From assembly GCF_020567425.1 (NCBI RefSeq), contig NZ_JAJCVJ010000005.1, positions 1 to 64,000 of the forward strand: a stretch of 64,000 bases of DNA, in the 5' to 3' direction. The stretch is from Salinirubrum litoreum (GTDB taxonomy: Archaea > Halobacteriota > Halobacteria > Halobacteriales > Haloferacaceae). The notes beneath the pieces were generated by a model. That model did not search any database. It was not told the DNA's origin and saw nothing but the letters and a program-made list of their open reading frames with translations. Each line of letters begins with the position of its first letter. The stretch's first letter is position 1. Below are positions 62,982 to 64,000 of this stretch, piece by piece. A program made the position numbers and the translations under genes.

Positions 62982-63022
62982 TTAACCAACAAAACTATGG
63001 GTCACTGGTTATTGTTGGTTAA
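62982..63022. promoter_or_regulatory. Paired inverted element TTAACCAAC / GTTGGTTAA (copy 7) and Shine-Dalgarno site
   Basis: Exact arms at 62982-62990 and 63014-63022, 23 bp apart. AGGAGGAAA follows directly and the start at 63039 is 17 nt after the right arm. A binding protein here would touch the translation start region. Confidence 0.6.
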
Positions 63023-63038
63023 TAGGAGGAAACTGCCG

Positions 63039-63362
63039 ATGTCCTACGAGCCACCGACCCCGCCTGCAGGCCTCCCGACCGAATTAGTCGAGACTCTCAA
63101 CGAGTCTCCGCCGGAACAGCTCCGGGAGGTATCCCGCTACGCTGAGGAGTTAGCCGAACACATAGAACGGAAGACCCGTCTTGAGGCGGAATCGGACAAG
63201 GACAACGTCGATGATCGTCCCGAAGACCTTCCAGACGACGTCCCTGCAAAGGCGACGATCACGATCAAGGAAATCAACAACAATCGCTACTACTACTGGC
63301 AGTGGCGAGACGGTGAAAAAATCCGATCTCAATATAAAGGCCCCGTCAGTCCCGACGAGTAG
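63039..63362 (+). CDS. DUF6788-like small protein
   Basis: 107 residues from ATG 63039, chosen because AGGAGG lies 11 nt before it; an upstream in-frame ATG (62997) lies inside the operator. The C-terminal block KATITIKEINNNRYYYWQWR is characteristic of DUF6788. An acidic linker (SDKDNVDDRPEDLPDD) precedes it. The N-terminal half is helical. It may bind DNA; function unknown. Confidence 0.7.
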   Translation: MSYEPPTPPAGLPTELVETLNESPPEQLREVSRYAEELAEHIERKTRLEAESDKDNVDDRPEDLPDDVPAKATITIKEINNNRYYYWQWRDGEKIRSQYKGPVSPDE

Positions 63363-63419
63363 ACGAGATTGAACCAGAGCCGAAGGTTTGTTTCAGCACC
63401 ATTGAACCCGTAGTTGACG

Positions 63420-63578
63420 ACACCCCCCAGAGTGTGAATGGGATCGGTTTACCGACACCCCTCAGTGTGAATGGCCTGCCAACCGTCTTTCCTCACCGTT
63501 ACATTACGTCAATAGGAGACGTAGAAATTCGTGGATGGATTATGAATCGATTACTCCCACACCCCTCAGTGTGAATGG
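63420..63578. repeat. Iteron family A, three copies
   Basis: ACACCCCTCAGTGTGAATGG at 63455-63474 and 63559-63578 (identical), and a close variant at 63420-63441. All have the same orientation with unequal spacing (about 35 and 104 bp). No gene is supported between 63363 and 63913. Confidence 0.65.
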
Positions 63579-63697
63579 TCTACCACCAGGGGTGCCGTGA
63601 TTGAGAAGCTCTTAACAGCAGAAGTCCCCGTACGGTAGGAGGTTTCTCCACAACGTCCTCATCGACGACACTGAGGACGATCAAAAATCGTGGGATC

Positions 63698-63890
63698 CAC
63701 CCCCCATTTTCGAGCTGTAAATCGGAGAGGGCAAGGAGACAGCACAGCACATGCTAAAGAACGTCGTATCTCTAAGGTCACCCTCCCCCCGTTTTCGAGT
63801 AGTAACGAGACACCCCGACAAATGACACCCTCCATTTTCGAGCTGTAAGCATCACCCGGGTCGCGAACACCCCCCGTTTTCGAGTAGTAA
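63698..63890. repeat. Iteron family B, four ORB-like copies with a G-string
   Basis: On the minus strand TTAC(AGC or TAC)TCGAAAA followed by T/C and a G run: 63698-63720, 63779-63805, 63825-63848, 63867-63890. Two end variants (AGCTGTAA and AGTAGTAA) alternate. The TCGAAAA core followed by G5-6 recalls haloarchaeal origin recognition boxes. Confidence 0.62.
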
Positions 63891-63913
63891 GTGCGGGGAG
63901 AATTTGAGCGAGA

Positions 63914-64000
63914 TTAGTTCTTACTCCGGAACTGCTTCAGCCGTTCGCGGACAACCGCGCTGATAGTCGCCTCTTCGTGAGCTAGATCTTCGAACCGGGA
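63914..64000 (-). CDS. C-terminal end of an unidentified gene (cut by the right edge)
   Basis: The last 28 codons read SRFEDLAHEEATISAVVRER and end RSKN before TAA at 63914. The helical basic tail is not diagnostic. Because iterons with a G-string lie next to it, an Orc1/Cdc6-type initiator is a reasonable guess; a small DNA-binding antitoxin-like protein is the alternative. Confidence 0.4.
   Translation of the reverse strand, partial: SRFEDLAHEEATISAVVRERLKQFRSKN

Follow-up and report, generated by a model that had tools for sequence, protein, structure and literature searches.

At the right end of the 64,000-nucleotide stretch of Salinirubrum litoreum DNA analysed here (the window), positions 63420-63890 likely form the downstream half of an orc1/cdc6 module on a circular plasmid, marked by the scar of an initiator replacement. 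Judged by sequence comparison, the family B repeats in this stretch would be the origin recognition boxes (ORBs) of OrcB, the Orc1/Cdc6 protein encoded next to them, and the family A repeats would be leftovers of a different initiator, OrcA.

The plasmid and its initiator gene

The window comprises bases 1-64000 of contig C5 (97,490 bp), one of five contigs in a 4.06-Mb genome. As the ends of C5 have 127 bp in common, the contig is circular, and the window is a portion of a circular plasmid of 97.5 kb from a haloarchaeon; the orc/par region of this plasmid has a ParA-family gene ~5.4 kb past the orc gene. Elsewhere in the genome, there are at least five more genes or gene fragments of the Orc type. 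The repeats are located in a gene-free interval of 551 bp (63363-63913), which is preceded by a conserved small backbone gene (62997..63362, plus strand). This gene, which is next to the array in almost all related plasmids, codes for 121 amino acids from the first ATG or 107 from the ATG at 63039, and profile searches gave no match for its product in Pfam or NCBIfam.

On the other side of the interval lies orcB (C5:63914-65413, minus strand, 499 amino acids), of which the 3' end (63914..64000) is inside the window. In profile searches, OrcB scored 351 bits against TIGR02928 (cut-off 181) and contained Cdc6_lid, Cdc6_C (winged-helix) and AAA domains, and PDB matches gave the archaeal Orc1/Cdc6 proteins 2qby and 2v1u as the closest solved structures. 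By these matches, the neighbour truncated at the window edge is an Orc1/Cdc6 initiator, in accordance with an earlier note on this DNA, which had predicted an initiator gene starting past the edge and had proposed to read the next 2 kb for an orc1/cdc6 or rep gene. The repeats thus adjoin a full-length Orc1/Cdc6 gene with AAA+ and winged-helix domains, as haloarchaeal orc/cdc6-adjacent origins do, and a bacterial-type iteron/Rep origin is ruled out by the profiles. OrcB (C5:64001-65413 and relatives) is 95-97% identical in plasmids of ~10 haloarchaeal genera from several families, whereas the small backbone protein is only ~56-93% identical. Judging from these identities, with OrcB more alike than the small backbone protein, the initiator cassette has spread rapidly.

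Family B sites

The four family B sites of the downstream array are all on the minus strand, at 63698-63720, 63783-63805, 63826-63848 and 63868-63890. With at most one mismatch, the B core TTTTCGAGNNGTAA has four matches in the window compared to 0.21 expected, a number reached by none of 100 shuffles. Exact matches to the core number nine in the whole 4.06-Mb genome, every one within C5:63707-66299, that is in the 2.6 kb round orcB, and the reversed-pattern control gave 0 genome matches. Family A has three matches in the window compared to 0.05 expected. The three family A and four family B repeats that had been placed in a gene-free stretch of about 550 bp are therefore where they were reported, and their counts are far above chance. 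The motif strand of family B has the sequence TTACNNCTCGAAAANGGGGGG. The TCGAAAA core and the G string of the original description are retained, but a variable base intervenes between the two, and in the site at 63826-63848 the string, given as five to six G residues, is interrupted (GGAGGG). The end variants (NN) do alternate along the array, as CT, TA, CT, TA in plus strand order, and the suggested likeness to haloarchaeal ORBs is borne out by the G string, which is found in haloarchaeal-type ORBs (PMC3528665).

ORBs with a G string are present in the intergenic regions on both sides of orcB, and those upstream of the gene, past the window, comprise four exact and one degenerate direct copies and one inverted copy. 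The spacing of the in-window B sites is 42, 43 and 85 bp (~4, 4 and 8 helical turns) and is conserved in relatives, and the four sites lie on one helical face. A Halomarina plasmid (L037) has an array with an extra two-ORB unit, which suggests that such arrays may grow by tandem duplication; this would explain the alternating end variants. The same layout is found in plasmids of Natrialbaceae, Haloarculaceae, Haladaptataceae and Haloferacaceae, whose Orc proteins are 83-97% identical to OrcB. We infer that the family B repeats are the ORBs of the adjacent OrcB, that is its predicted binding sites.

Family A sites and the probable exchange of initiator cassettes

The family A sites, putative orphan ORBs of the OrcA type, are located on the minus strand at 63421-63441 (CCATTCACACTCTGGGGGGTG), 63454-63474 and 63558-63578. 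In its own genome, the form CCATTCACACTNNGGGG is confined to these three C5 sites, which rules out a dispersed genomic repeat; one A-related site, at C2:50057, is solitary and has no Orc match nearby. In the nearest relatives (L125, L029 and L123), window positions 63482-63555 are absent through a one-unit deletion between A sites 2 and 3, with A site 3 lost in the nearest one. A motifs were found in 67 of the 391 genomes searched at class level, and the reversed control of the motif gave none among the matches listed. In many genomes, A sites with the same spacing as in the window (33 and 104) are followed by inverted A sites ~1.7 kb further on, and the gene in between codes for OrcA, a protein of 429 amino acids that is ~31% identical to OrcB. 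In Halobacterium pNRC200 and its kin, a fragment (NC_002608.1:159225-159734) matches the C-terminal 40% of OrcA at 95% identity and is probably what is left of an orcA module.

A third type, OrcC, is ~38% identical to OrcA and has the ORBs TTTCACTCTGGACGAGGGGTG, and a fourth, OrcD, is 49% identical to OrcB and has the ORBs TTCATATCGCACACGGGG. With an Orc family defined by at least 80% identity, we compared 69 distinct loci. The upstream motif follows the initiator type, with A at 20 of 21 orcA loci, B at 32 of 34 orcB loci and C at all 13 orcC loci, and there is no cross-occurrence. The B motif is also present downstream at all 34 orcB loci and never occurs with other Orc types. These type-specific upstream motifs rule out family A as a second iteron set of OrcB: of the two iteron families in the earlier note, A is the ORB type of another Orc family. 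Downstream of the gene, A is found beside other initiators at 19 of 34 orcB, 10 of 13 orcC and the single orcD locus, counts which are inflated because some loci had been chosen for their A motifs; when loci were picked solely for orc homology, A is present in 9 of 19 orcB plasmids, and hence absent from 10, and in 2 of 5 orcC plasmids. Where A is missing from loci picked in this way, the adjoining flank is missing too. The only other foreign downstream motif is a single C site at the orcD locus, and A is the sole motif found downstream of all other orc types.

The orcA plasmids and C5 have flanking genes in common: ArdC-like, SWIM and the small gene on one side and, in some plasmids, p124 and p644 on the other. 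Compared to the orcA plasmid G371, C5 is homologous up to 63648 (77%), and the homology resumes at 66576 (98% over 2.9 kb). In between, C5 has a 2.93-kb segment with orcB and all B sites, whereas the corresponding 1.8 kb of G371 contain orcA together with the A sites upstream of it. The left breakpoint zone of the swapped cassette spans 63649..63697, from the end of G371 homology to the first B site, which begins at 63698. On the right, part of C5:66381-66575, between the origin and p124, is common to orcA, orcB and orcC plasmids, which marks the right cassette edge. By eye, this region holds on the minus strand a C-terminal gene fragment, ending in ...VRAVESILSRFDWDYNNIRRELSGTRVVDITDWA*. The foreign ORBs of C5 are thus flanked by DNA homologous to a plasmid that has the cognate initiator at the same place.

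The backbone genealogy is discordant with the initiator type. On each of the ArdC and small-protein trees, which are single-gene trees with many weak branches, the Orc labels A, B and C need at least 14 changes, and the starred branches of the ArdC tree alone force at least four (B) to six (A). By these comparisons, this plasmid family has undergone repeated exchanges among several Orc types, each of which comes with an ORB sequence of its own. As many orcB plasmids have no A sites, the swap may have run either way in a given lineage.

The orcB and orcC modules also occur together, on the single plasmids NZ_CP040331.1, NZ_CP096662.1, NZ_CP034344.1 and CP132293.1 and on two separate plasmids of strain AArc-T1-2, and this co-occurrence agrees with distinct, compatible replicons. 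In orcC and orcD plasmids (L117:7173-7289, L122:6328-6497, L116:6459-6539), the space from the A pair to the orc module contains a further repeat with a G string (TACGACGGAAACGTGGGGTGGGT), which has left traces in some orcB plasmids and possibly represents the ORBs of yet another initiator. In L116, orcC-type sites lie beside orcD.

Proposed model and alternative explanations

We propose that an ancestor plasmid carried orcA at the place now held by orcB, with the A sites as the ORBs of OrcA. A ~2.9-kb cassette (C5:63649-66575) with orcB and its ORBs would have replaced orcA and left the A sites behind, and the A array is best read, from the plasmid comparisons, as the orphan ORB scar of this swap. 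In the present plasmid, OrcB would bind the inverted ORBs upstream of its own gene, open the AT-rich DNA that they enclose and load the helicase there. The four B sites in the window would bind and titrate OrcB and so limit initiation, similar to oriC2D in Haloarcula hispanica.

The orphan A array could instead be kept as a decoy or incompatibility element, which would titrate the OrcA of incoming or co-resident orcA plasmids with the same backbone and thereby favour its own plasmid. In line with this idea, A sites are kept beside three other initiator types, and a chromosomal ORB array has been found to lower plasmid replication in trans (PMC3936714). Among A-retaining plasmids that were picked by orc homology, the pairwise difference is 5.1% for A1 and 3.4% for A2 compared to 26-27% for flank and spacer; a first comparison was biased by loci picked by A, and this repeat on unbiased loci still shows low A divergence. 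However, flank divergence is probably older than the swaps and dates from a time when A was still working for OrcA in orcA plasmids, so that the low divergence does not prove function, and we dropped the conservation of orphan A sites as a proof of it. The closest clade has too few changes for A sites and flanks to be compared. In addition, about half of the orcB plasmids are devoid of A, and the host encodes no close relative of OrcA, with at most 38% identity to OrcA among its other Orc proteins. We therefore regard a decoy function as unlikely, and the relic reading of the A array is simpler. One might also speculate that haloarchaeal plasmids with this backbone change their incompatibility group through the exchange of orthogonal Orc1/Cdc6 cassettes and keep the old ORB array as a decoy against the initiator of sister plasmids, but this more general idea seems to us rather improbable.

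The earlier note had taken 63420-63890 itself for an Orc1/Cdc6-type origin. ORBs are indeed dense there and adjoin the initiator gene, and origins downstream of orc have been predicted for some haloarchaea (PMC3528665). Haloarchaeal origins consist of an orc/cdc6 gene and inverted ORBs with a G string round AT-rich DNA (PMC3528665), and such inverted ORBs round a potential unwinding region are found upstream of orcB, outside the window, and not within 63420-63890. The upstream pair of inverted B sites (C5:65921-65948 and 66286-66313, 28 nt) is 100% complementary and encloses the least stable 100 bp of the whole 97.5-kb contig, located at 66084 (-1.204 kcal/mol per step; contig mean -1.477, sd 0.083). 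In contrast, the B sites in 63420-63890 all point in the same direction, and the stretch has an AT content of 0.48 and no strongly AT-rich segment. GC skew was dropped as a means of siting the origin: the mosaic plasmid shows no clean switch at the orc module. The H. hispanica array of ORBs that follows cdc6E lacks ARS activity and acts as a repressor of its origin, likely via titration of Cdc6E; with two downstream ORBs, the effect is intermediate (PMC3936714). Thus, the part of the earlier claim that concerns an initiator with its ORBs stands, but the canonical origin would lie upstream of orcB (C5:65921-66313), ~1.9-2.3 kb past the window edge, and we consider it quite improbable that 63420-63890 is the origin itself. 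C5 likewise has an array of same-type ORBs directly downstream of its initiator gene, and the one-way B sites, the lack of an AT-rich segment and the H. hispanica precedent suggest that the stretch is probably a control array titrating the initiator rather than a core origin, an analogy drawn from one experimental system with 11 downstream ORBs compared to four in C5.

Finally, that family A is bound by a non-initiator, for example the small conserved protein encoded beside the A array at most loci, is very improbable, as A sites occur upstream of orcA in both orientations and in ORB position at 16 of 21 orcA loci and end in the haloarchaeal G string, and some loci have the small gene without A.

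Significance and comparison with known systems

The replicon type is normally taken as a plasmid's identity. Here, at least four distinct initiator-origin cassettes occupy one and the same site of a single archaeal backbone that is distributed over several haloarchaeal families, and the leftover ORBs would record earlier occupants and thus provide a natural, sequence-readable record of initiator replacement. Sets of near-identical Orc proteins whose ORB sequences are distinct also become available, with which origin recognition, titration and incompatibility could be tested in Archaea. Family-linked ORBs, downstream ORBs and two ORB types near one orc gene have been published (PMC3528665), as has the recruitment of origins into extrachromosomal replicons. 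In the open-access literature, supplementary files aside, we found no account that interprets foreign ORB arrays as scars left by an exchange of initiators.

The downstream array of C5 resembles oriC2D of the oriC2-cdc6E locus in H. hispanica, in which an ORB array also lies directly downstream of the initiator gene and the origin upstream (PMC3936714). C5 differs in its smaller number of sites (four and not 11), its location on a plasmid and the extra foreign ORB type, and negative control is proposed for it by analogy. Two distinct ORB-like families near one orc gene are also known for Hla_3512 and HQ2959A, where they were read as two candidate origins (PMC3528665), whereas the second type in C5 can be attributed to one particular initiator other than OrcB. 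Certain plasmid replicons of Pseudomonas have likewise been described as chimeras of exchangeable modules (PMC5304414), a broad likeness to C5, the initiators of which are archaeal Orc1/Cdc6 proteins. In the origins described by Wu et al. 2012 (PMC3528665), as in C5, family-specific ORBs that end in a G string lie beside an Orc1/Cdc6 gene, with inverted ORBs round AT-rich DNA and, in some cases, ORBs on both sides of the gene. Unlike these origins, C5 keeps a second ORB type that belongs to another Orc family and is traceable to a sister plasmid of the same backbone.
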